Below, piece by piece: positions 4,944 to 49,382 of a DNA stretch of 52,166 nucleotides. Position 1 is the stretch's first letter. Every line of letters begins with the position of its first letter. The notes under the pieces were generated by a model, which made no database searches, was not told the origin of the DNA, and saw nothing but the letters and a program-made list of their open reading frames with translations. Location of the stretch: positions 1 to 52,166 of the IMG/VR virus record IMGVR_UViG_3300032288_002130. One strand, given 5' to 3'. The DNA comes from a virus. Made by a program: the position numbers and the translations under genes.

Positions 4944-4972
4944 TTGACTTTAATAAAAGTATGCGTTATAAT
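4944..4972 (+). promoter_or_regulatory. Sigma70-type early promoter, leaderless
   Basis: TTGACT (4944-4949), 17-bp spacer, TATAAT (4967-4972). The ATG begins at 4979, exactly where transcription would start (7 nt after the last -10 base), so the mRNA should have no leader. Confidence 0.8.
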
Positions 4973-6449: not shown

Positions 6450-6457
6450 TATAAATA
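6450..6457 (+). promoter_or_regulatory. Late promoter TATAAATA for gene 13
   Basis: Exact T4 late consensus TATAAATA, predicted start near 6463, 13 nt before the ATG at 6476, with TAAGGA as ribosome site. Confidence 0.78.
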
Positions 6458-6472
6458 GTCAATAAGGACTAT
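6455..6472 (+). promoter_or_regulatory. Hairpin over the gene 13 ribosome site (present only in read-through RNA)
   Basis: ATAGTC (6455-6460), AATAAG loop, GACTAT (6467-6472). The right arm takes part of the TAAGGA ribosome site. RNA started at the late promoter (about 6463) would lack the left arm, while RNA read through from the early gene upstream would contain the whole hairpin. T4 genes e and soc are known to use this arrangement. Confidence 0.45.
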
Positions 6473-6475
6473 ATT

Positions 6476-7213
6476 ATGGCTCAAAGAGATAAAGTAATTG
6501 ACGAATTAGAACGCCGTTTAGGCGGTAGCATGGTCGACGTTGAACTAGACCGAGAAGACTATGATTTGTGTATAGATAAAGCTCTCTCAAAATTTCGTCA
6601 ACGTTCCAGCCGAGCAGTGGAAGAAGCTTATCTTGTTTTAGATTTAGAACAAGGTAAAAGCGAATATATTTTACCTACTGAAGTTATGGAAGTAAGGGTA
6701 ATATATCGAAGGGTTGCGGGTGGCTTGGCCACAGCAGGACAAGATATCGAGCCTTTTGAAGCTGGCTTTTTGAATACATATTTGCTTAACAGCGCACGAG
6801 CCGGCGGCCTTTTAACTTTCGAACTTTACAGTCAATATCGAGAACTAGTAGGACGTATGTTTGGCGCCCATGTTATTTTTAATTGGTACCCACAGCGCCA
6901 TACCTTACTAATTCATAGAAATATTAGAGCAGACGACAGCGTAATTTTACATGTTTATATGCATCGTCCAGAAGAATATTTGCTAGACGATCCATACGGT
7001 GCTCCATGGATCAAAGACTATGCACTTGCACATTGTAAAATGATATTAGGACAAGCTCGTAGTAAATTTGCACAAGTTGCTGGACCCGGCGGTGGCACCA
7101 CACTTAACGGCGATGCACTAAAAACCGAAGCTCAAGCCGAAATCGAAAAGTTAGAAACCGAACTAACCCAATACATCGAAGGCGGAACACCATATACATT
7201 TATTATTGGTTAA
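6476..7213 (+). CDS. 13: Neck protein, gp13-like
   Basis: A 245-residue protein starting MAQRDKVIDELERRLGGSMVDVELD, followed by a helical DLCIDKALSKFRQRS segment and a mixed-strand body (FNWYPQRHTLLIH). This is typical of gp13-type neck/head-completion proteins, which bind the portal and, with gp14, close the head. It sits next to gp14/gp15, though on the opposite strand and separated from them by two early genes, unlike T4 where 13-14-15 are contiguous. It is expressed from a consensus late promoter. Confidence 0.68.
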   Translation: MAQRDKVIDELERRLGGSMVDVELDREDYDLCIDKALSKFRQRSSRAVEEAYLVLDLEQGKSEYILPTEVMEVRVIYRRVAGGLATAGQDIEPFEAGFLNTYLLNSARAGGLLTFELYSQYRELVGRMFGAHVIFNWYPQRHTLLIHRNIRADDSVILHVYMHRPEEYLLDDPYGAPWIKDYALAHCKMILGQARSKFAQVAGPGGGTTLNGDALKTEAQAEIEKLETELTQYIEGGTPYTFIIG

Positions 7214-7221
7214 ACTTGTTC

Positions 7222-7250
7222 TTGTAGGAAATTGACCCCGGTGCTAAAAT
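7222..7250 (+). promoter_or_regulatory. Probable early promoter for dNMP kinase
   Basis: TTGTAG (7222-7227), 17-bp spacer, TAAAAT (7245-7250), start predicted near 7257. A TTGACC at 7232 is an alternative -35 with a poorer -10. The -10 lies in the loop of the terminator-like hairpin at 7235-7274. Confidence 0.5.
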
Positions 7251-7274
7251 ATATTATTCATACTGGGGTTTTTT
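7235..7274 (+). terminator. Terminator-like hairpin around the dNMP kinase promoter
   Basis: ACCCCGGTG (7235-7243) pairs with TACTGGGGT (7261-7269): 9 bp including two G-U pairs, directly followed by six T. It would end late transcripts from gene 13, and it hides the GGGG ribosome site. RNA started at the local early promoter (~7257) starts inside the loop and escapes. Confidence 0.62.
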
Positions 7275-7944: not shown

Positions 7945-7966
7945 ACCCGGTTTTCCGCTAGGTAGC

Positions 7967-7974
7967 GATAAATA
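7967..7974 (+). promoter_or_regulatory. Late promoter box 2 before the sheath gene
   Basis: GATAAATA, start predicted near 7980. Confidence 0.6.
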
Positions 7975-7997
7975 TTTGGACATCCAAGTATTTGGAC

Positions 7998-8004
7998 CTA
8001 AATA
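7998..8004 (+). promoter_or_regulatory. Late promoter box 3 before the sheath gene
   Basis: CTAAATA, start predicted near 8010, 9 nt before the ATG. The box touches the AGAGG ribosome site, so RNA from it may lack most of that site. Confidence 0.5.
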
Positions 8005-8018
8005 GAGGAAAACACAAT

Positions 8019-10406
8019 ATGGCAACATTAGTTTCTCCAGGCGTAGCGGTAAGTGTTATTGACGAAAGTGCGTATGCAAGCGCAGGTCAAGGAACAGTTC
8101 CACTTATTATCCTGGCTACAGCGGAAAATAAATCGGTACCTGGCGGAACAGGACTAGCCGCAAAAACACTTAAGAGTGCGGCAGCACAACCTGTACTTTT
8201 AACTAGTCAACGCGAACTAGCGCAATTATTCGGCGCCCCAGAATTCAAGAGTTTAAATGGCACACCATTGCATGGTAGTGAATTAAACGAATATGGTCTA
8301 TTAGCAACTTACAGCTATTTAGGTCTAGCAAACCGTGCTTATGTATTACGTGCAGACGTAGACCTAGCACAATTAGAAGCTACAGCAACTGAACCCGCAG
8401 GATTACCAGCTAACGGCACTTACTGGTTAGACACAGCCGATACAGTTTGGGGCCTATTCGAAGCGTCTGATGACAAATGGATAGCAAAAGACATTACAGT
8501 ATTCGGCGCAGGCCAAGTTACAAATAACAATGTACCTTTAAGCAACTTAGGGGTAAACGGTGACTATGGTGTTGTAGTAACTACCACAGCCAACAACTAT
8601 TTTAAGAAAATCAACGGTGCATGGTTTGACGTTAACAGCGGTGCCCTAACAACTGCTAGAGGCATTTTCACAACAGTTACCGTTGCTCCTCACTATAATG
8701 TTCCTAGTGCAGCCAATGAAGGTGATGTATGGTTTAAAACTACAACACCTAACAAAGGTTTCTCTCCAGCAGTTAAGCGTTACAGTAGCACTACTGGTCA
8801 GTTTGCCAGTGTGCCTGTTAGCGTTTATGACAATGACAATGCAGCCGAAACAGCATTTGGTACAGGATTACAAACAGGTAGTGTTTATGCTAGATCTACA
8901 GCAAACAATGCTCAGTTTGAACTACGTCGTTATAGTGCCGGTGTATGGGATACACTAGTATACGAAGCAAAAGCTACAGAACCAGTTGGCCCAACAGCAG
9001 ACGGCACACTATGGTATAATACTGAACTAGTAGCTGACATTTATGTTAAAGCCAATGGCCAGTGGAGAAGCGTTGTTCAAAATGGTAATAGTGTAACTAT
9101 TGATACAGCTGAACCAGAAAATGCACAAGTAGCTGACATTTGGGTTGATACTAACGATTTAGAAAACTATCCACAAATTAAAGTATATGATGGTAGTGCA
9201 TGGCAATTGCGTAACAATGCTGACCAAACAACTCCTGATGGTGTAGTATTTGCTGACTTAACAGCTACTCCTGCTGACAATAGCATGATGGGCTTTGGAG
9301 CAACTCCATACAGCGAAGAAGATACACCAGATCCATTAACACATCCAGATGGCATGTTACTATGGAACAGCATGGTATCTACTTATAATGTTAAACAGTA
9401 CAATGCAGCCGAAGGTCAATGGCATACTGTCAGTGGTAACATTAGCGCAGGTCCTAAGGCCGGCGCACCTTACATGGGACGTAAAGCACAACGTCAAGTT
9501 GTAGTACGTGCTATGCAAAAAGCTATTACTGAGAACCAACAGATCCGTGAAGAAACAATGGCATTTACATTGATTGCGGCTCCTGGCTATCCTGAATTGT
9601 TAGATGAAATGTTAACATTAAATGTTGACCGTAAAGAAACAGCATTTGTTATCTGCGACAGTCCATTGAGATTAGGACCTGATGCATCGGGTTGGGTTGA
9701 ATGGGTAAACGGTACTAATGCTGGAACAAACGGCGAAGACGGTATTGTTACTAAATCTAGCGAAGCCGCTGTGTACTATCCAAGTGTATTGACCACAGAC
9801 TTGAACGGTTATGATGTAGTTGCTCCTGCTAGCCATGCAGTATTGCGTACCTATGCTTACAACGACAGCATTAGTTATCCATGGTTCGCCCCAGCTGGTC
9901 TAACACGCGGTGTTGTAACTAACTGTTCTAACTTTGGTTATATCAACGGTGAAGGCGAGTTTATGCCATTGGCACTAAACAACGGCCAACGTGATACATT
10001 GTATGCTAACAAGATTAACCCAATGGTTAACTTCCCTGGTACAGGCCTAGTAATATTTGGTCAAAAGACTCTAAGTCCTATTGCCAGCGCACTAGATCGC
10101 ATTAATGTAGCCCGCTTAGTTGCTTACTTGCGTGAACGTTTTGATCCACTAGCTCGTCCGTTTATCTTTGAACCTAACGACACAGCTACAAGAGCAAACG
10201 TTAAAACTCTGTTTGATGGCTTCTTAGGAGACATTTTAACCAAGCGTGGTGTCTATGACTTCTTAGTAGTCTGCGATACAACAAATAACACCCCATCACG
10301 TATTGATGCTAATGAACTATGGATTGATATTGCAATTGAGCCTACCAAGGCCGCTGAATTTATCTATATCCCAGTACGTATCGTTAATACAGGCGCATTA
10401 TCATAA
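8019..10406 (+). CDS. 18: Tail sheath protein, gp18
   Basis: 795 residues from ATG 8019 (MATLVSPGVAVSVIDES), which follows AGAGGA; an upstream in-frame start at 7992 lacks this. The N-terminal VSPGV...E start and the C-terminal domain (DILTKRGVYDFLVVCD, then IDANELWIDIAIEPTKAAEFI) are those of contractile phage sheaths, the outer cylinder that shortens during injection. Residues ~120-475 are an insertion of about six related short units (for example GTLWYNTELVADIYVKANGQW and VADIWVDTN...KVYDGSAWQL), probably small beta domains exposed on the sheath. Three late promoter boxes precede it, as expected for a high-copy protein. A terminator follows. Confidence 0.93.
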   Translation: MATLVSPGVAVSVIDESAYASAGQGTVPLIILATAENKSVPGGTGLAAKTLKSAAAQPVLLTSQRELAQLFGAPEFKSLNGTPLHGSELNEYGLLATYSYLGLANRAYVLRADVDLAQLEATATEPAGLPANGTYWLDTADTVWGLFEASDDKWIAKDITVFGAGQVTNNNVPLSNLGVNGDYGVVVTTTANNYFKKINGAWFDVNSGALTTARGIFTTVTVAPHYNVPSAANEGDVWFKTTTPNKGFSPAVKRYSSTTGQFASVPVSVYDNDNAAETAFGTGLQTGSVYARSTANNAQFELRRYSAGVWDTLVYEAKATEPVGPTADGTLWYNTELVADIYVKANGQWRSVVQNGNSVTIDTAEPENAQVADIWVDTNDLENYPQIKVYDGSAWQLRNNADQTTPDGVVFADLTATPADNSMMGFGATPYSEEDTPDPLTHPDGMLLWNSMVSTYNVKQYNAAEGQWHTVSGNISAGPKAGAPYMGRKAQRQVVVRAMQKAITENQQIREETMAFTLIAAPGYPELLDEMLTLNVDRKETAFVICDSPLRLGPDASGWVEWVNGTNAGTNGEDGIVTKSSEAAVYYPSVLTTDLNGYDVVAPASHAVLRTYAYNDSISYPWFAPAGLTRGVVTNCSNFGYINGEGEFMPLALNNGQRDTLYANKINPMVNFPGTGLVIFGQKTLSPIASALDRINVARLVAYLRERFDPLARPFIFEPNDTATRANVKTLFDGFLGDILTKRGVYDFLVVCDTTNNTPSRIDANELWIDIAIEPTKAAEFIYIPVRIVNTGALS

Positions 10407-13406: not shown

Positions 13407-13957
13407 CACGTAAATTAGAAGAATTGTTTGGGTTGCCACCCAATGATTCTACAATTAATCAGCAAGATCCGGAATGGGATCTTGCAAATCAAGATGCAGA
13501 CGTTGAAAAAGAAGTAACAGGTACCGACGTTGTGCCACCGGAACAATTGAAAGCAACTTTAGATTTAGCTGAAAAAATTGAACGTGCATTGCCTCAAGTT
13601 AGAGATGTTGATAGCACCGACGCCGACTTAGACGAATATGCTAAAAAAGCCATGGAAACTTATGATAGGCTAGTTGATTTGGGGATGAATGTAGATGACA
13701 GAAATGCAGGCATGATATTCGATGTTGCCAGTAAAATGATGTCAAACGCAATTACAGCCAAAAACAGCAAACTAGATGCAAAATTACGCAGAATTGAACT
13801 ACAGCTAAAAGCCAGCAAGTTGCAGTTAGACAAAGACAAGTTTCAAAGCGGCAAAACCCCAGGTGCAGGGGATATAGTAGAAGGCGAAGGCTATATAGTA
13901 ACAGATCGAAATGCCCTACTTCAAGGCATAGTTAATAAAATCAAAAACGATAAATAA
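13403..13957 (+). CDS. 16: Small terminase subunit, gp16
   Basis: 184 residues with an acidic N-terminus. The two-helix core (YAKKAMETYDRLVDLG, ASKMMSNAITAKNSK, LRRIELQLKASKLQ) matches the central coiled coil by which T4 gp16 assembles into rings. It regulates the gp17 packaging motor and recognises DNA for the first cut. The context agrees: it lies after gp4 and two genes before gp17. The stop codon overlaps a GATAAATA late box. Confidence 0.75.
   Translation: MTRKLEELFGLPPNDSTINQQDPEWDLANQDADVEKEVTGTDVVPPEQLKATLDLAEKIERALPQVRDVDSTDADLDEYAKKAMETYDRLVDLGMNVDDRNAGMIFDVASKMMSNAITAKNSKLDAKLRRIELQLKASKLQLDKDKFQSGKTPGAGDIVEGEGYIVTDRNALLQGIVNKIKNDK
13949..13956 (+). promoter_or_regulatory. Late promoter box overlapping the gene 16 stop
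   Basis: GATAAATA, start predicted near 13962; CGGAGA ribosome site and ATG 13976 follow. Confidence 0.55.
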
Positions 13958-13975
13958 CACATCGGAGACTATGCA

Positions 13976-14575
13976 ATGAAGACCCTATTAGAATACATAG
14001 AAGCTAACCAAAAAGATTATAAAATTCGCTTAAAATTTGCTTTTGAGCCCAGTAAAGATCAAATGGCAACCTTAGAGCGTCACCTTAAAAAGTATGACGT
14101 TAAAGACGTTAGTAATGTAGCACGACTAATGCTACAAAGCCAACCAACAGATTTTCCCGACTATAAAGGATACGAAATTTATTTGGTAGATGCAGTAACA
14201 GCATTGCCTGTTAGTTATGATTCTTTAAAGCAAGAAATTTGTGATTTATTATGTGTAGATCCTAGTCAAATTAAAGTACGTAATCCTGACGCTCCACGTG
14301 AAGAAGAAGTAGACCAAGAAGAAGCCAAAGAAGAAGAGTATGTACCTAGACTAACAGATGAAAAATATTCTGAAATAGAACAAACAAAAACAAAGCCTGC
14401 ATTTGGCGATGACTTTAATGCAAGTTTTCTAAAAGACTTAGCTGGGCAAAAGCGCAAGCAAGAGTTTGCTAAACGTCCCGACGTTAAACCTTCTAAGCCT
14501 CTCAAAGCAGAGAAATCCTTAAGTCCGATCAGCGGAAGAAATACTATCCCTGATCCAATGAAGATAGGAAAATAA
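13976..14575 (+). CDS. Late protein of unknown function (199 aa)
   Basis: Not recognised. The N-terminus MKTLLEYIEANQKDY resembles the capsid-targeting sequence of T4 internal proteins (MKTYQEFIAE-A), although the P3 residue of a YIE/A cut would be Tyr. A small folded domain follows (IRLKFAFEPSKDQMATLERH; about 100 residues), then an acidic stretch (EEEVDQEEAKEEE) and a Lys/Pro-rich tail. It is expressed from a late promoter between the two terminase genes. It may be an internal head or assembly protein. Confidence 0.65.
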   Translation: MKTLLEYIEANQKDYKIRLKFAFEPSKDQMATLERHLKKYDVKDVSNVARLMLQSQPTDFPDYKGYEIYLVDAVTALPVSYDSLKQEICDLLCVDPSQIKVRNPDAPREEEVDQEEAKEEEYVPRLTDEKYSEIEQTKTKPAFGDDFNASFLKDLAGQKRKQEFAKRPDVKPSKPLKAEKSLSPISGRNTIPDPMKIGK

Positions 14576-23754: not shown

Positions 23755-23783
23755 TTGACAGAAAACCATACTTGTACTACAAT
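23755..23783 (+). promoter_or_regulatory. Sigma70-type early promoter, leaderless
   Basis: TTGACA (23755-23760), 17-bp spacer, TACAAT (23778-23783); ATG 23790 is exactly at the predicted start. Confidence 0.8.
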
Positions 23784-23793
23784 GCAAGTATGG
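23766..23793 (+). promoter_or_regulatory. Inverted repeat around the -10 box and start codon
   Basis: CCATACTTG (23766-23774) and CAAGTATGG (23785-23793): a perfect 9-bp repeat with 10-nt spacer. The right arm contains the ATG. Read-through RNA from the late gene upstream could fold and hide the start; leaderless RNA could not. Confidence 0.6.
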
Positions 23794-28556: not shown

Positions 28557-29056
28557 GTAGAATTTTAACAATAGACAACGAGTTATTCGATATGAATAAC
28601 TTGCCAGATGAGATAGACGATTTAAGATACGGCGTACTAGATTACAGTGATCCAAACAATGTAGATTATTTGTTTGTACCCTTAGTGTTTTTAGAAAGCT
28701 TCAATGCCCCTAGTGCAGTAATGCGTATAGGTCGTCATCAATTTCAAATGCCATTAGATTGGAGTATGATTATTGGGGAGCCAGAAATAGGAGAACCAGA
28801 AATTGTTCCGATTATGAGTTTGAACGATAGGGGTTTTAAAGCGTTTATCCTAAATCCTTTTACTGCTTACATGCCTAAGTTTGAAACAGTAGAGATTGTA
28901 AATGTCTATCCAGAGATCAAGTGGTATTTTCCTAAACTCAAATACGGACATTTATTAACTGTACCGTTATGCGAAGGACCAAATCCTCCCTGCGCTTATT
29001 TCGTCAAAGAAACACAAAAGTTACCTGAAATACTTGAACTGCATAAACTATTCTAA
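28553..29056 (+). CDS. Hypothetical protein (167 aa)
   Basis: Not recognised. Starts within the uvsW stop (ATGA). The sequence is acidic at the N-terminus (NNLPDEIDDLRYGVLDYSD), followed by beta-type segments (FVPLVFLESF; KFETVEIVNVYPEIKWYF). Co-translation with uvsW and position before the replication operon hint at DNA metabolism. The promoter for the next gene overlaps its last codons. Confidence 0.7.
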   Translation: MSRILTIDNELFDMNNLPDEIDDLRYGVLDYSDPNNVDYLFVPLVFLESFNAPSAVMRIGRHQFQMPLDWSMIIGEPEIGEPEIVPIMSLNDRGFKAFILNPFTAYMPKFETVEIVNVYPEIKWYFPKLKYGHLLTVPLCEGPNPPCAYFVKETQKLPEILELHKLF

Positions 29057-29062
29057 TATAAT
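29034..29062 (+). promoter_or_regulatory. Early promoter, leaderless
   Basis: TTGAAC (29034-29039), 17-bp spacer, TATAAT (29057-29062) immediately after the upstream stop; ATG 29068 is 5 nt after the -10. Confidence 0.65.
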
Positions 29063-29067
29063 ACAAT

Positions 29068-29544
29068 ATGGCTACCGTAAAAGATCATAAGATTAATCTA
29101 ACAACAATGCTAGGGGCAATGGACCGCCGCCAAGTAGATTGGTTTGATAAGTTAGACGAAGATCAAAAGAAGGAATTTGAGCCGTGGATGGCTATGCGTT
29201 TTTGTAGTAGTGCTGATGGCAGTCAAGGCATCAAAGAGCATTACTTACTATGCACTAATGATTTTGTTAATAAGAATTTCGGTGCTATTAGTCTTAAAGA
29301 ACATAAAGAGTTACACTGGTTAAGTTTGCGTACAGTAGGTATAGGTAAAAGTGTTATACATCCTTTTATCAAACCACCCAAACGTGCTCCAAAAAATAAA
29401 CTACAAACTTGGCTAACTGAACAGTTTCCACACCTTAGCAATGACGAAATAGATCTTATGATTTCTGTTAACACTAAAGAAGCGTTAATGGATTATGCTA
29501 GACAATTAAACCTTGACCCAAAACAAATTAAAGAATTGTTTTAA
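29068..29544 (+). CDS. Possible clamp-loader small subunit (gp62-like)
   Basis: 158 residues. The arrangement FEPWMAMRFCSS, LLCTNDFVNKNF, a basic IKPPKRAPKNKL stretch and a C-terminal helical LMISVNTKEALMDYARQL resembles small phage gp62 clamp-loader subunits (a F-x-P-W-M...R...S start, N..N, K-rich middle). gp62 works with gp44 to load the sliding clamp gp45; neither partner is in this window. Similarity is weak and from memory, so this is tentative. First gene of a four-gene overlapping early operon with the DnaE-like gene. Confidence 0.45.
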   Translation: MATVKDHKINLTTMLGAMDRRQVDWFDKLDEDQKKEFEPWMAMRFCSSADGSQGIKEHYLLCTNDFVNKNFGAISLKEHKELHWLSLRTVGIGKSVIHPFIKPPKRAPKNKLQTWLTEQFPHLSNDEIDLMISVNTKEALMDYARQLNLDPKQIKELF

Positions 29545-36940: not shown

Positions 36941-36948
36941 AATAAATA
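36941..36948 (+). promoter_or_regulatory. Late promoter box for the second fibre
   Basis: AATAAATA, start ~36954; AAGGAAA precedes ATG 36978. Confidence 0.6.
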
Positions 36949-36977
36949 TTGAATACAGTCCAAATCAAGGAAATAAA

Positions 36978-39900
36978 ATGACTACTAAGCAGGTAAGATT
37001 AAGAAGAGGAACTACCCAACAGCACCAAAACTTTACAGGTGTTCAGGGAGAAATAACAGTTGATACAGATAAGAAAACAATTATAGTTCATGACGGTACT
37101 ACTGTTGGCGGAACTCCTTTAGCCACTGAACAGTTTGTTCAAAATAGTTTTGTTGACATAACACAAGGTCCAGTGGGCCCGCAAGGCCCTGCAGGTGTAA
37201 CTATTGCCAGTGCTACTGTTAGTTCACAAGGCAGGTTGTTAGTTACTTTAACAAATAATACAGTAGTTGATGCAGGAAACGTTTCGGGCATTGCTTCAGC
37301 AACAGTTAATGGCGCCGGGCAGTTAATTTTAACAAAACAAGATGGTACCACAATTAATGCAGGCTCACCAATTGGACCTCAGGGCGAACAAGGAGAAGTT
37401 GGCCCCCAAGGACCACCGGGCACTACTGACTATGAACAATTAGTAAACAAGCCCAATTTAGCACCGGTAGCAACTTCTGGTAGTTATAATGATTTGACTG
37501 ACACGCCTAGTATTCCAAGCATTGCTGGTTTGGCAACAGAGTCTTATGTAAACAATGCAGTCAACAATTTAGTTGATGCCGCACCTTCGGCTTTAGATAC
37601 ATTAAAAGAATTAGCAACAGCACTGGGTAACGACAGTAATTTTTCTGCTAGTATTAGTACACAATTAGGAAATAAAGCCAACACCGCAGACTTGGCCGCA
37701 GTAGCAACTTCTGGTAGTTATACCGACTTAATAAACACACCTACACTTTCTTCTGTCGCAACAACTGGAAGTTATACTGACTTAGGGGATGTTCCAGTTG
37801 GCAGATCTGTAAGTTTAGTAAATACGGCCACGTATCAGTGTTCAGGCGAAGTCGAAGAATTGCTAGTTAATTATGCTGGGGACTGTGTAATTACATTGCC
37901 TGTGACCGCTGTAAACGGCATGAAGATTAAAATCAGGGATATCAGTGGTAACTTAGGAAAAATTAAAAAAATACAATCAGCACAATATGGAGTAAGTCGT
38001 CCTGGTTTAAGTATTAGAATTCAAGTAGCAGAAGGATCTAATCATAAAATTGCAGGTCGAGACTATGACGCAGATTACATAGGAGTACCTGCTCCGAATG
38101 CAGGCCGTGAATTTGTGTTCTTTAATAATAAATGGTATTTAGAAAATTTAAACAGTTTAGTAGAAGATTCGTGGTGGCCAACTAAGTTAGGTGGTGTTGA
38201 ATTTATTGACACTAATCAACCAGGCAGTGACTTGGGAGGAGCCGGACTAATACCATTTAATAAAGGTCGTAGCGCATGGGACCTGGAGTTAGGTGCATAT
38301 TCTTCTGATCATATCGATCGCAGTTATTTCATTCCAGGAGATACTTACGGTGCTCCAGAATCATGGTCGAGAATTTGGTTAAGCAATCGCGGAGCTATCA
38401 TTGGCGGACAAATGTACAGCGGCGCTTCGTTGACATTGGCAGGCGGAACATTAAATCTAAAAAGTCCTTTAGATATAACAACTCCTAACGGAATTTCTGC
38501 ATCCAACGTACATGTAGCACCTAGCAACTTATGGGAGTTCGGTAGGGTAACGATCGATTCTGGTCTAAGTTATAGTGATACAACTAGATTAGATTTTACT
38601 AATAGCCGCGGCGGCACAAGATGGATTGCCGTAGGCGGCAGTAGACAAGGTGGACAATATACATTCAGTCCAGATACCACTGGCATTTGGAAATCATTTG
38701 ACGGTATGAACTTTACACCTGTACCAAATCCTTTTAATGAAACTGGATCAAGTGCAAATATAGTAACAGTGGCACATATCAGTACTGGTGGATCATGGGG
38801 TACACTATTAGCCGCAAGTAGTTCTAATAGGTATTTTAAAAGCACAAACGGTGGCGACACTTGGACAGAAGTTACTACTTCGGGTATCGGAGCTCCTACT
38901 CCTGGACAATACTACTTTCAAAGAAAACTATTTGGGGCAGGCACAAGATTTTATTTACTAGAAAGCAGAAACATTTATCAGTCCTTAGATGGTGGTTTGT
39001 CTTGGACTAATGTTGTACCAACTGAAGTCACATTAGATAATCAAATTGTATTAAATGACATGGCTTATAATCCAACATCTAATACAATTATTGTAGTGGG
39101 TGGCCGCTGGGATCCTAGTTCTTTTGGTTGGAAAGGTAGTTATGCTATACGTAGTGATCTAACAGCCACCGACGAAACACAATGGACAACAATCATTGAC
39201 TCTAATGAAGGTGGTATTCTAAGTGTTGCATCTACTACGGATTACGATGGTGTAGATCGTTGGGGCATGGTAAGACAAAAATCTTGGAATGAAAATTTTC
39301 ACGGATGGGGCGTAGCCGCACAATTGTGGAATGAAGGCAATAGATTTACCACTGCACAATTTAGTAAAAAACTTTCTACAGTAATACCAGAAGTAACCGA
39401 CGGAAATAAAGAAATACCATGGTGGGAAAGTGCTCTTGGACGTCAAGGCGGCGGCGCTGGCTGGACTAATCACCCTACATTGAAATGGGAGGATCCTAAC
39501 TTCTGGCAGCAAGAAGTAGTCAAATCCGTTATGTGCATGGACAGAGTTGGAGTGCCCTTGATGTTTGTTGCAACAATGGAATGGATGGGCGGCAGCAGTG
39601 GCGGTAGTGAAGGTGGCGGCGGAGAAAGCACTAGTGTAGTAGTCAGCCATATCTATACAGTACCTGACAAATCAGTAGTAAATCCTCATGAGGATTTAAC
39701 AGAAAGTTTTGTAGCAGGTGCAATCAAAACCCTTGCAGTTCATCAGTCTGGCGTTAACATGTTTGTAATGGCTGACGGGGATTTTGCATTGTATGCGGCT
39801 GGACGATCAGTTTCAGCAGACGGAAGAAACTGGCAAACATGGTGGAGTTTGTCTGGATACTATGACGAATCTGATCCTGCATTTGAGGGAGAACAATACT

Positions 39901-40577
39901 TGGGCTTGCAACGTGCTCCGGTATATGATGTTATTGCGATAGATTCAACAGACGTAACTCAGATTAATGAAGCAATAGTGGGTAGTATTAGTGCAGAACC
40001 AAGTCAAGGTACTTTTAGAATTCAAGGCAAACAAGTTGGATCAGCAGTAATGATTGATACTAGAGATGCTACCGGTGTTTTAAGTTATAATTTAGCCTGC
40101 TACGACAACAAAGTATATGCTAAGAATCTAACCTTAGATGGCGGATTGACATCTATGTCCAACGTTATCAATTTAAATAATTTGACTTATGCTAATATTG
40201 GACTTGGACTAAAAGGACAGTATGGTATATATCATAACCCAACAGGAACAGCTATAACAGTACCAGCCGGGCAACTAGTAACTTTGGCTACATATAGTGA
40301 AAGTTTTACTACTGTTAAGTATTTGGTCAGTGCTTATTCATCGGATGGTGTACATAGTCAAACTTCTGAAATTTTAATCAGCGGTTTAACTTACAATATT
40401 AACAATCCAAATGGTACTGTGACTTCTATTACTAACGATGGCAGTGGTGCTTGGTTAGCATTTGGAATTGTTCGAAATCCTGATAATATAATGCAAATTC
40501 AAATAGTTTGCGCGGCTTCGTATTCATGTAAAGTTAGTATGTTGCCAATTATGATGATTTCGCCACAATACTCATAA
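36978..40577 (+). CDS. Large tail fibre with collagen-like and Asp-box segments (1199 aa)
   Basis: The N-terminal LRRGTTQQHQNFTGVQGEIT domain is closely related to that of the 1271-aa fibre. Collagen-like GPVGPQGPAG and GPQGEQGEVGPQGPPG stretches follow, then an ALDTLKELATALGNDSNF segment shared with the other fibre. Around 38687-39015 three Asp-box-like units (SFDGMNFTP, STNGGDTWTEV, SLDGGLSWTNV) suggest a beta-propeller of the sialidase/BNR type. Later residues are beta-rich. It could bind or cut surface glycans; the catalytic residues of sialidases are not identified. Confidence 0.82.
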   Translation: MTTKQVRLRRGTTQQHQNFTGVQGEITVDTDKKTIIVHDGTTVGGTPLATEQFVQNSFVDITQGPVGPQGPAGVTIASATVSSQGRLLVTLTNNTVVDAGNVSGIASATVNGAGQLILTKQDGTTINAGSPIGPQGEQGEVGPQGPPGTTDYEQLVNKPNLAPVATSGSYNDLTDTPSIPSIAGLATESYVNNAVNNLVDAAPSALDTLKELATALGNDSNFSASISTQLGNKANTADLAAVATSGSYTDLINTPTLSSVATTGSYTDLGDVPVGRSVSLVNTATYQCSGEVEELLVNYAGDCVITLPVTAVNGMKIKIRDISGNLGKIKKIQSAQYGVSRPGLSIRIQVAEGSNHKIAGRDYDADYIGVPAPNAGREFVFFNNKWYLENLNSLVEDSWWPTKLGGVEFIDTNQPGSDLGGAGLIPFNKGRSAWDLELGAYSSDHIDRSYFIPGDTYGAPESWSRIWLSNRGAIIGGQMYSGASLTLAGGTLNLKSPLDITTPNGISASNVHVAPSNLWEFGRVTIDSGLSYSDTTRLDFTNSRGGTRWIAVGGSRQGGQYTFSPDTTGIWKSFDGMNFTPVPNPFNETGSSANIVTVAHISTGGSWGTLLAASSSNRYFKSTNGGDTWTEVTTSGIGAPTPGQYYFQRKLFGAGTRFYLLESRNIYQSLDGGLSWTNVVPTEVTLDNQIVLNDMAYNPTSNTIIVVGGRWDPSSFGWKGSYAIRSDLTATDETQWTTIIDSNEGGILSVASTTDYDGVDRWGMVRQKSWNENFHGWGVAAQLWNEGNRFTTAQFSKKLSTVIPEVTDGNKEIPWWESALGRQGGGAGWTNHPTLKWEDPNFWQQEVVKSVMCMDRVGVPLMFVATMEWMGGSSGGSEGGGGESTSVVVSHIYTVPDKSVVNPHEDLTESFVAGAIKTLAVHQSGVNMFVMADGDFALYAAGRSVSADGRNWQTWWSLSGYYDESDPAFEGEQYLGLQRAPVYDVIAIDSTDVTQINEAIVGSISAEPSQGTFRIQGKQVGSAVMIDTRDATGVLSYNLACYDNKVYAKNLTLDGGLTSMSNVINLNNLTYANIGLGLKGQYGIYHNPTGTAITVPAGQLVTLATYSESFTTVKYLVSAYSSDGVHSQTSEILISGLTYNINNPNGTVTSITNDGSGAWLAFGIVRNPDNIMQIQIVCAASYSCKVSMLPIMMISPQYS

Positions 40578-40580
40578 TAT

Positions 40581-40609
40581 TTGACTTATCCTGCACAAGA
40601 GCATAAAAT
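40581..40609 (+). promoter_or_regulatory. Early promoter for primase, leaderless
   Basis: TTGACT (40581-40586), 17-bp spacer, TAAAAT (40604-40609); ATG 40616 is exactly at the predicted start. Confidence 0.8.
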
Positions 40610-40638
40610 ATATACATGAGCCTTGTGCAGGATTTTTT
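40588..40638 (+). terminator. 12-bp inverted repeat plus T-run across the primase promoter and start
   Basis: ATCCTGCACAAG (40588-40599) and CTTGTGCAGGAT (40622-40633), a perfect 12-bp repeat with 22-nt loop, then T-rich sequence to 40638. Late RNA coming from the fibre genes would form a terminator inside the primase gene. Primase mRNA starting at 40616 lacks the left arm. Confidence 0.7.
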
Positions 40639-41626
40639 ACGACAGCATTTACCTAGTCAGAAAGTAAACCCCAGCGGATGGGTTAGCTTTAACTGTCCTG
40701 TCTGCACGAGTAACGGGCAAGCAAGACCAGACACTAAACGTAGAGGCGGCGTTAGATTTCCTGACTCAGACAGCTTTCAATATAATTGCTTTAACTGTCA
40801 TTTTACAACTGGATGGAGCCCGGGCAAAAATCTCAGCAGTAGAGTCAAGCAGTTGTTTAAAGGACTGGGAGTCAGTGAAGCAGACGTTCAACGACTGCAA
40901 ATTGAACTGATGCGAGAAAATGAAACTAAGGCATTTTTAGAACAGTCATTTAAAAATGCCAATAGAGAAAAATTCAATCCCAATTGGAACACAGTTAAGT
41001 TACCCTATGGTAGTGTTCCTATAAACAGTGTCTCTAATGAATACACGCAGGCTGCTCAGCAATATTTGTCTAATAGGAAAATCTTAAATTATGCTGATTG
41101 GTATTGGGCAGACAGCGATGTGCATAATTTATACAATAGAATTGTCTTGCCCTTAACATATCAAAATAACATAGTAGGCTATCATGCACGTTGGATAGGC
41201 AAGCCGCCTACAAAAGAAACAGCTAAGGTTATCAAAGAGCAACCAAGAGATTATGTATACGGTATTGACCAACAAACAGACTTGCGTAAATATGTTCTCG
41301 TCATGGAAGGCGAATATGACGCAGTAGCAATCAGCGGAGTTAGTACTGGTAGCAATCGTATAAGTCGTAATCAAGCTGACATAATCGAAAGCCTTGGTAA
41401 AACAATCATAGCTGTACCTGACAGAGATAGAGCAGGTCGAGACTTTGCAGAAGATGCCATTGAATACGGATGGAGCATTAGTATCCCCGAATGGGACAGC
41501 GGAATTAAAGACGTTGCAGATGCAGTAGAACAATATGGTAGACTGTTTGTGTTAAAAACGATAATTGACAGCCAAGAGTCTAATCCTATAAAATCAAAAG
41601 TAATAGTGAGAACACATTGTGAGTGA
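40616..41626 (+). CDS. 61: DNA primase, gp61-like
   Basis: 336 residues. The zinc-binding domain has C27-P-V-C30 and C58-F-N-C61. The Toprim domain has VLVMEGEYDA (E231/E233) and VPDRDRAGRD (D269/D271), the metal-binding acids of DnaG-type primases. It makes RNA primers for lagging-strand synthesis with gp41, whose gene overlaps by 8 bp. The promoter, start codon and inverted repeat are overlapping. Confidence 0.93.
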   Translation: MSLVQDFLRQHLPSQKVNPSGWVSFNCPVCTSNGQARPDTKRRGGVRFPDSDSFQYNCFNCHFTTGWSPGKNLSSRVKQLFKGLGVSEADVQRLQIELMRENETKAFLEQSFKNANREKFNPNWNTVKLPYGSVPINSVSNEYTQAAQQYLSNRKILNYADWYWADSDVHNLYNRIVLPLTYQNNIVGYHARWIGKPPTKETAKVIKEQPRDYVYGIDQQTDLRKYVLVMEGEYDAVAISGVSTGSNRISRNQADIIESLGKTIIAVPDRDRAGRDFAEDAIEYGWSISIPEWDSGIKDVADAVEQYGRLFVLKTIIDSQESNPIKSKVIVRTHCE

Positions 41627-43121
41627 CACAAAAGAATATCTAGAAGACATACAAAAACTATTTTTGGAGTTCCTGATCAGCGACAAGGAACTATTAGCAC
41701 GTACTAATGCGATTATTAATCCTGAGTATTTTCATAGGACATTAAGACCCGCTGCCGAGTTTTTAGTTAGCTATGCTAACGAATATACTGCGGTTCCCAG
41801 TCCCGAACAAGTCAAAGCAACCACAGGCGTTGATCTAGCAGTACATCCTACTTTAAACTCGGACCATCATCAGTGGTTTTTAGATGAGTTTGAACAATTT
41901 TGCAAGTACAAAGCCCTTGAGAAAGCTATTCTTAAATCAGCAGACTTGCTAGAGAAAAACGACTATGGTAAAGTAGAACGTCTAATCAAAGAAGCAGTAG
42001 AAGTAGGACTGGCTAAGAGCTTTGGTACAGATTACTTTGAAGATCCCGCAGCCAGACTGCAAGCACTAAAAAGTCGTAACGGCGGAACAACTACAGGTTG
42101 GAAATCAGTAGACGACAAACTATATGGTGGTTTTAATAGGGGTGAGTTAAACATCTTTGCTGGTGGATCTGGCGCAGGTAAATCCTTATTCTTGCAGAAC
42201 TTGGCTTTAAACTGGAGCCAAGCAGGATTTAACGTAGTGTATCTAAGTTTAGAACTTAGTGAAGGATTATGTAGTTTACGTATGGACAGTATGTTAACTG
42301 GGACCAGTACTAAAGAAATCTATAGGAACTTAGACGATGTTGATTTGAAAGTTCGTATGGCAGGCAAAAAGTCTGGAAAATTACAAATTGTACAGTTGCC
42401 AAACGGCATTAACGTTAATGATTTAAAAGCATGGCTTAAAGAATATACCATTCAAAAGGGTGTTAAAGTAGACTGCATTGTCATTGATTACTTAGATTTG
42501 ATGATGCCCGCAGGCCAAAAGATCAGCGTATCGGACTTGTTTATCAAAGACAAACTAGTATCAGAAGAATTGCGTAACTTTGCTATGCAGGGCAATTACT
42601 TTTTAGCCACAGCATCGCAGTTAAACAGGGCCGCAGTAGAAAGTGTAGAATTTGATCATAGCCATATTTCGGGCGGTTTAAGTAAGATTCAAACAGCGGA
42701 TAACGTTATTGGTATCTTTAACAGCATTACTATGCGCGAACGCGGACGTATTCAAATACAGTTTATGAAAACACGTAGTAGTAGCGGTGTTGGCCAAAAA
42801 GTAGAATTAGCCATTGATATTAATACTTTGCGTATTTCCGATGTTGATGAAAATGACGTTGCTCCGCCCAGTAGTGCTGATGTGATGTTTAACAAACTAA
42901 AACGTCAAGCACAGCAAGAAACAGCAGGATCAACTAGTGGTCCGTTGGATGTAACAAAAGCACCATGGGCGGGTGACCGCCCTACTGGCACACCTGCTTG
43001 GGAAAAACCAGCTCAGCAACTGGGCCAACAAGCAGAATTGAATGCTATTAGACGAGAAAATAGTACCGTTTCCTCTGTTATAGACCGCAGTGAGCAATTA
43101 AGAAATCTGTTGAAAAAGTAA
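41619..43121 (+). CDS. 41: Replicative helicase, gp41 (DnaB-like)
   Basis: 500 residues from a GTG start inside the primase 3' end. Walker A GGSGAGKS is at 182-189 and Walker B CIVIDYLD at 286-293, followed by an SQLNRAAVES-type motif and HISGGLSKIQTADN as in DnaB-family helicases. It unwinds DNA 5'-3' on the lagging strand and couples to gp61. The C-terminal ~80 residues are polar and probably flexible, with a final basic/acidic helix. Normal family length. Confidence 0.95.
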   Translation: MSDTKEYLEDIQKLFLEFLISDKELLARTNAIINPEYFHRTLRPAAEFLVSYANEYTAVPSPEQVKATTGVDLAVHPTLNSDHHQWFLDEFEQFCKYKALEKAILKSADLLEKNDYGKVERLIKEAVEVGLAKSFGTDYFEDPAARLQALKSRNGGTTTGWKSVDDKLYGGFNRGELNIFAGGSGAGKSLFLQNLALNWSQAGFNVVYLSLELSEGLCSLRMDSMLTGTSTKEIYRNLDDVDLKVRMAGKKSGKLQIVQLPNGINVNDLKAWLKEYTIQKGVKVDCIVIDYLDLMMPAGQKISVSDLFIKDKLVSEELRNFAMQGNYFLATASQLNRAAVESVEFDHSHISGGLSKIQTADNVIGIFNSITMRERGRIQIQFMKTRSSSGVGQKVELAIDINTLRISDVDENDVAPPSSADVMFNKLKRQAQQETAGSTSGPLDVTKAPWAGDRPTGTPAWEKPAQQLGQQAELNAIRRENSTVSSVIDRSEQLRNLLKK

Positions 43122-49346: not shown

Positions 49347-49374
49347 ATACCCTGCTTCGGCAGGGTATTTTTTT
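49347..49374 (+). terminator. Rho-independent terminator
   Basis: ATACCCTGC, TTCG loop, GCAGGGTAT, then T-run: 9-bp stem. Confidence 0.92.
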
Positions 49375-49375
49375 G

Positions 49376-49382
49376 CTAAATA
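49376..49382 (+). promoter_or_regulatory. Late promoter box
   Basis: CTAAATA just after the terminator; TTAGGTGG precedes ATG 49409. Confidence 0.6.

Follow-up and report, generated by a model that had tools for sequence, protein, structure and literature searches.

A hairpin enclosing the promoter of a phage primase gene as a putative terminator of read-through transcription

How might a compact phage genome insulate its replication genes from late transcription of the structural genes that precede them? The question is raised by a junction in a freshwater phage (IMG/VR record IMGVR_UViG_3300032288_002130; the whole stretch analysed, 52,166 nt, is called the window below), where a tail-fibre gene is followed by a primase gene and a helicase gene (Table 1). 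The first-pass annotation of this DNA had described a perfect 12-bp inverted repeat at the primase start, with one arm in the promoter spacer and the other in the first primase codons, followed by a T-rich run. All of this is exact in the sequence, with the small correction that arm base 40633 doubles as the first T of the T6 run.

Table 1. Features of the tail-fibre/primase junction, in window coordinates
Feature	Position	Strand	Basis or remark
T4-type late-promoter-like motif, AATAAATA	36941..36948	+	~30 bp before the tail-fibre gene
Tail fibre gene, 1199 aa	36978..40577	+	PHROGs tail fiber/tail protein; transcript proposed to be stopped
-35 hexamer of the primase promoter, TTGACT	40581..40586	+	Promoter conserved in relatives
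Left (5′) arm, ATCCTGCACAAG	40588..40599	+	Primase promoter spacer, between -35 and -10
-10 hexamer, TAAAAT, in hairpin loop	40604..40609	+	Promoter match
Primase ATG, in loop, at predicted transcription start	40616..40618	+	6 nt past -10
DNA primase, 336 aa	40616..41626	+	34% identity to PA5oct DNA primase; phrog_47
Right (3′) arm, CTTGTGCAGGAT	40622..40633	+	Primase codons 3-6
T6 run, predicted release point	40633..40638	+	Sequence
DnaB-like replicative helicase	41619..43121	+	phrog_19; downstream in primase unit

A hairpin with a promoter and a start codon in its loop

The two arms (40588-40599 and 40622-40633) enclose both the -10 box and the primase start codon in a loop of 22 nt, which shrinks to 17 nt if two extra inner pairs are counted. 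No other perfect inverted repeat of at least 12 bp with a loop of at most 30 nt exists in the 52-kb window, and 200 dinucleotide shuffles gave a mean of 0.17 such repeats per window, or 0.025 when at least five G/C per arm were required. As RNA the hairpin folds to -21.1 kcal/mol (z -5.6), a value that none of 200 shuffles equalled. With a stem more stable than shuffles and a U-run directly 3′ of it, the element has the marks of an intrinsic terminator, except that its loop of 22 nt, or 17 nt, exceeds the 3-13 nt allowed by TransTermHP, a limit that is a search rule and no strict definition but that still counts against plain membership in the class. A standard terminator scan of loops of 3-8 nt missed the hairpin. 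The U-run is partly fixed by the Asp-Phe-Leu codons of primase, and because the minus strand has no T-run beyond the repeat, any terminator here acts on rightward transcription only.

The enclosed promoter, TTGACT-17-TAAAAT, is sigma70-like and not of the T4 late type (TATAAATA), from which we infer early transcription of primase. A promoter of the TTGACA-17-TATAAT type occupies the matching place in ~40 related junctions from IMG/VR, and in many of these, by reading, it overlaps the last codons and the stop codon of the upstream gene. Spacing between the -10 box and the ATG is 6 nt in the window and, among relatives with the promoter, mostly 5-6 nt, and the best Shine-Dalgarno match before the primase ATG is a poor one of 3 nt. 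Leaderless genes are recognised by a start codon that follows the -10 box by 5-8 nt, without a Shine-Dalgarno, and primase has this arrangement; because only 6 nt separate its promoter from an ATG that no good Shine-Dalgarno precedes, the primase mRNA is probably leaderless. The lambda cI transcript from PRM is a leaderless sigma70 transcript whose start codon lies at or beside the transcription start, as predicted for primase, but unlike primase it has no hairpin around it.

Leaderless-looking starts were frequent beyond this gene. In nearly half of 97 de-duplicated promoter/gene pairs from the window and its relatives the -10 box ends 4-7 nt before the ATG, a frequency unusual for phages, and the set includes many primase homologues. 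Within the window, leaderless-looking sigma70-type promoters lie at 4944-4963, 23755-23792, 29034-29070 and 40581-40618.

The best named relatives of the primase belong to jumbo phages, such as PA5oct (34%) and SCTP-2 (31%), and in PA5oct, RaK2 and 121Q a structural gene is likewise annotated before primase and helicase. The motif TAAATA occurs 26 times on the plus strand and 10 times on the minus strand of the window, often 15-60 bp before structural genes; this strand bias and placement suggest T4-like late promoters, by which the tail-fibre gene would be transcribed late. In PA5oct (1440-1500), the annotated GTG start of primase directly follows TATAAT, and an imperfect 8-bp dyad, ACGTGCAT/GTGCGCGT, surrounds this -10 box.

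Coordinated change of the two arms among relatives

We compared the window with four relatives, L002, L003, L004 and L006, whose primases are 86, 83, 65 and 63% identical to that of the window; a contig (L001/L010) that matches the window at 99.96% identity along 10.8 kb was not counted as independent. The full hairpin is present only in the window (with its near-identical contig), L002, L003 and L004, which form one clade. It folds to -25.3, -24.2 and -22.1 kcal/mol in these three relatives (z -5.8 to -6.9), and the stem leads into a T-rich run in 4/4 of the full-hairpin genomes (TTTTTT in L002 and L003, TTTTCT in L004). L006 has only a weaker hairpin, with the lower stem lost and no U-run behind it.

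The first-pass annotation had proposed comparing whether related genomes keep the complementarity through compensatory changes, and such changes are found in L002, L003 and L004. Between the window and L002/L003, one left-arm base has changed; its pairing partner, in the Val4 codon, is the sole right-arm base to have done so, and C-G has become U-A. In the same two genomes the Ser2 codon has gone from AGC to AGT, which brings one extra pair. In L004 the Val4 pair is lost (A·A) and one pair is G-U, while three inner pairs are gained. Across the genomes the Val4 wobble pair thus appears as C-G, U-A and, in L006, G-C. Pairing cells make up 85.7% of the five-sequence alignment and 24-44% when the partner is slid, and the covariation score was matched by 7/500 shuffles.

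Exchanging arms between genomes weakened the fold in nearly all combinations, and an arm's own partner was the best or within 0.5 kcal/mol of the best. The window left arm folded to -21.1 kcal/mol with its own right arm, but the right arms of L002-L004 gave only -14.4 to -14.5 and that of L006 -8.6; the L006 left arm reached -14.6 with its own partner and -7.3 to -8.8 with the others, and the L004 left arm folded 0.5 kcal/mol better with the window right arm than with its own. The codons are also tuned to this pairing. When primase codons 2-9 were randomly recoded with synonymous codons according to the window's codon usage, 0/2000 recodings folded as well as the window, and the corresponding fractions in the four relatives were 0.55%, 0.45%, 0.75% and, for L006, 0.1%. 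The covariation and recoding numbers come from five sequences, related ones counted, and are suggestive rather than final; at that strength, they suggest that the noncoding left arm and the coding right arm changed in coordination in L002-L004, keeping their pairing.

These data bear on whether the match arose by accident, through coding constraint on the right arm and a conserved promoter spacer that happens to be complementary to it. The right arm does encode a conserved stretch of protein, and repeats straddling promoters are not enriched at the other promoters of the group, as an accident would have it. We nonetheless regard chance as very improbable and already disfavoured, given a shuffle expectation of only 0.025-0.17 per window, arms that covary in relatives and the small share of recodings (0-0.75%) that fold as well in each genome compared.

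Symmetric changes are likewise what one would expect if the arms were operator half-sites, or two sites, of a repressor that shuts off primase transcription; a dimeric repressor had been offered in the first-pass annotation as an alternative. The dyad is symmetric around the -10 box, 34 bp separate the centres of the arms, and each arm is itself partly palindromic (CYTGTRCARG). We found no second copy of either arm in the 52-kb window at up to one mismatch, as the sites of a regulon would provide, and this did not favour the proposal, a repressor with a single target being possible. The L004 arms differ at their centre and compensate with pairs further in; since neither arm recurs in the window and what L004 keeps is fold energy and not site sequence, a repressor site is the less likely explanation, and we judge it improbable. 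It would also leave the U-run without explanation, and what the recoding test finds tuned is the RNA pairing energy. Least probable of all, in our estimate, is a DNA-level hairpin or cruciform serving as a replication signal: location alone, beside primase and helicase, speaks for it, whereas the repeat sits within a promoter, the T-run is on the coding strand only, and the G-U pairs of relatives suit RNA and not a DNA cruciform.

Proposed termination dependent on where the RNA begins

We propose, with a probability of about two in three, that the hairpin is an intrinsic terminator that ends the late tail-fibre transcript and encloses the promoter of primase, an early and apparently leaderless gene. 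Late RNA leaving the tail-fibre gene would contain both arms, form a hairpin of 12-14 bp and, at the U-run (40633-40638), terminate without entering primase and helicase. At the sigma70-type primase promoter, RNA polymerase would start at or beside the ATG at 40616, 17 nt past the left arm, and its RNA, unable to form the hairpin, would read through to yield a leaderless primase mRNA. The left arm stops 4 nt short of the -10 box and is therefore missing from every transcript of the primase promoter; RNA from 40616 onward forms no such hairpin (-5.8 kcal/mol, z +1.5), in agreement with the earlier claim that primase mRNA lacks one arm. Since the promoter lies inside the arms and only upstream RNA carries both, hairpin formation would depend on the origin of the RNA, and since U6 directly follows the stem, we infer intrinsic termination as the simplest output.

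The same logic is known from T4, in which genes e, soc, 49 and I-TevI have a promoter between the arms of a hairpin that silences read-through RNA at translation (PMC3014915, PMC2988022). There, too, the repeat brackets the promoter, both arms occur in read-through RNA only and the 5′ arm is missing from transcripts of the inner promoter; at primase, the -10 box (40604-40609) likewise falls between arms that end at 40599 and start at 40622. In T4, however, the inner promoter is late and the read-through RNA early or middle, whereas the primase promoter is sigma70-like, hence early, and its read-through RNA would be late. The T4 hairpin hides a ribosome binding site, whereas primase has no real Shine-Dalgarno and its ATG is in the loop and not in the stem; and at primase a U-run follows the stem. 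With an inner promoter that would be early, no real Shine-Dalgarno and a U-run, the output at primase is, unlike that in T4, most likely termination.

The T4 geometry (PMC3014915, PMC2988022) can equally be taken to mean that the read-through hairpin acts on translation, by hiding the start region, or on RNA stability, by protecting a processed tail-fibre 3′ end, and not on termination. The primase ATG, in the loop beside the stem, would fit such an action, as would L006, whose hairpin is weaker and lacks a U-run yet is codon-tuned (0.1% of recodings as good). We hold this to be unlikely. The start codon is outside the stem, the best Shine-Dalgarno match of 3 nt leaves no good site to hide, so that a read-through copy would translate poorly anyway, and the U6 directly after the stem would be superfluous. 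As read-through RNA has no ribosome site at the ATG that would merit covering, a block of translation alone is the less likely output.

Termination thus remains our preferred output, and its main doubt is efficiency. The element resembles a canonical Rho-independent terminator in its G+C-bearing stem, its immediate U6 and its place at the end of a transcription unit, but its 3′ arm and U-run lie inside the next gene's codons, and its loop, which contains a -10 box and a start codon, measures 17-22 nt against a Term-seq median of 4 nt and a TransTermHP limit of 13 (PMC12207403). Of the conditional terminator in the first-pass annotation, then, the promoter between the arms, their covariation and the T-rich run in all four full-hairpin genomes speak for the model, whereas the loop falls outside the usual range. 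The weaker L006 hairpin, with no U-run, is likewise something that termination would leave unexplained.

At the transposase start of IS10 and IS50, transcripts from outside form a hairpin and the element's own transcript lacks one arm. Only outside transcripts would form the primase hairpin as well, but the insertion-sequence hairpins act on translation, in mobile elements, and involve no terminator. A small literature search found no described case of termination as the output where an early replication gene begins; the promoter-between-arms logic is already known from T4, and termination as its output would probably be new. On balance we lean towards the view that one stretch of ~50 bp terminates a late operon, drives the early operon after it and encodes the opening codons of that operon's gene, with stopping set by RNA origin and the noncoding arm tracking synonymous changes in the coding arm. 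If this is true, the primase start would be a one-way gate that stops tail-fibre RNA and passes RNA from the primase promoter, and terminator, promoter and codons would share one sequence, insulating replication genes from late transcription without extra DNA. The read-through-hairpin logic of T4 would then extend from translation to termination, in a small, testable design for termination that depends on transcript origin.

Distribution of the hairpin and related elements

Because ~40 other relatives keep the promoter and lack the hairpin, the putative gate is an optional, dispensable feature within the phage group. Two DNA-pattern scans for further hairpin-bearing relatives returned only the four known by protein, other pattern hits having been sifted by primase similarity only, and a protein scan of bacterial genomes found one distant primase (39%), without the hairpin. 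Ordinary small-loop terminators occupy this junction in Vibrio phage 2.275.O and in one further relative (L058), and in Salicola SCTP-2 an ordinary terminator hairpin, by reading, overlaps a -35-like sequence; most marine relatives have neither an enclosing hairpin nor an ordinary terminator there.

The gene upstream of primase, judged from its end, is a tail-fibre homologue in L002 and L003 and has an unrelated end in L004. The L006 alignment skips from 36941 to 40581 (L006 4965/4966), with the junction exactly at the primase -35 box, and because of this skip the whole tail-fibre gene and its late motif are absent from L006, a difference that suggests gain or loss of a module. Read in this way, the junctions show the promoter/hairpin unit staying with primase while the upstream tail-fibre genes are swapped. 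Neighbouring tail genes of L006 are up to 93% identical to those of the window.

The same logic had been claimed for an element before the dNMP kinase gene (window ~7235-7274), which reads CCCCGGT...ACTGGGG and TTTTTT, then the dNMP kinase ATG. It is terminator-like and resembles the primase hairpin in outline, but it is weaker (7 pairs, including one G-U); TTGACC overlaps its left arm, and the -10 is poor, with none clear. Own and swapped arms paired alike among 22 promoter-bearing sequences (p = 0.42, no covariation), and relatives carry a Shine-Dalgarno leader instead; the swap result led us to reject it as a second conserved case. Among the 97 de-duplicated promoters of the window and its relatives, the primase clade supplies the top three for straddling complementarity, and once it is removed 5/94 reach p ≤ 0.05, as chance predicts, so promoter-straddling hairpins were also rejected as a general feature. 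With no covariation at dNMP kinase and no enrichment elsewhere, the claim fails as a general rule.

Some individual promoters carry related structures. A perfect 9-bp dyad, CCATACTTG/CAAGTATGG, surrounds a -10 box at 23766-23793 of the window, and a small ORF has its start codon (ATG 23790) within the right arm; because no T-run follows, it is closer to the translation-blocking type of T4. In relative L268 (~2951-2995), the dNMP kinase promoter has perfect 9-bp arms, CCCCTGTAA/TTACAGGGG, and read-through RNA would hide the Shine-Dalgarno because the right arm contains it. Strong gene-start hairpins (z -3 to -4.4) at window positions 6450-6480, 7960-8020 and 13926-13976 carry T4-type late motifs (TATAAATA/GATAAATA) in an arm or the loop and are candidates for T4-like silencing of read-through RNA. 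At 49347-49382 lies a classic UUCG-loop terminator, ATACCCTGC-TTCG-GCAGGGTAT, whose T-run is followed at once by the late-type motif GCTAAATA.
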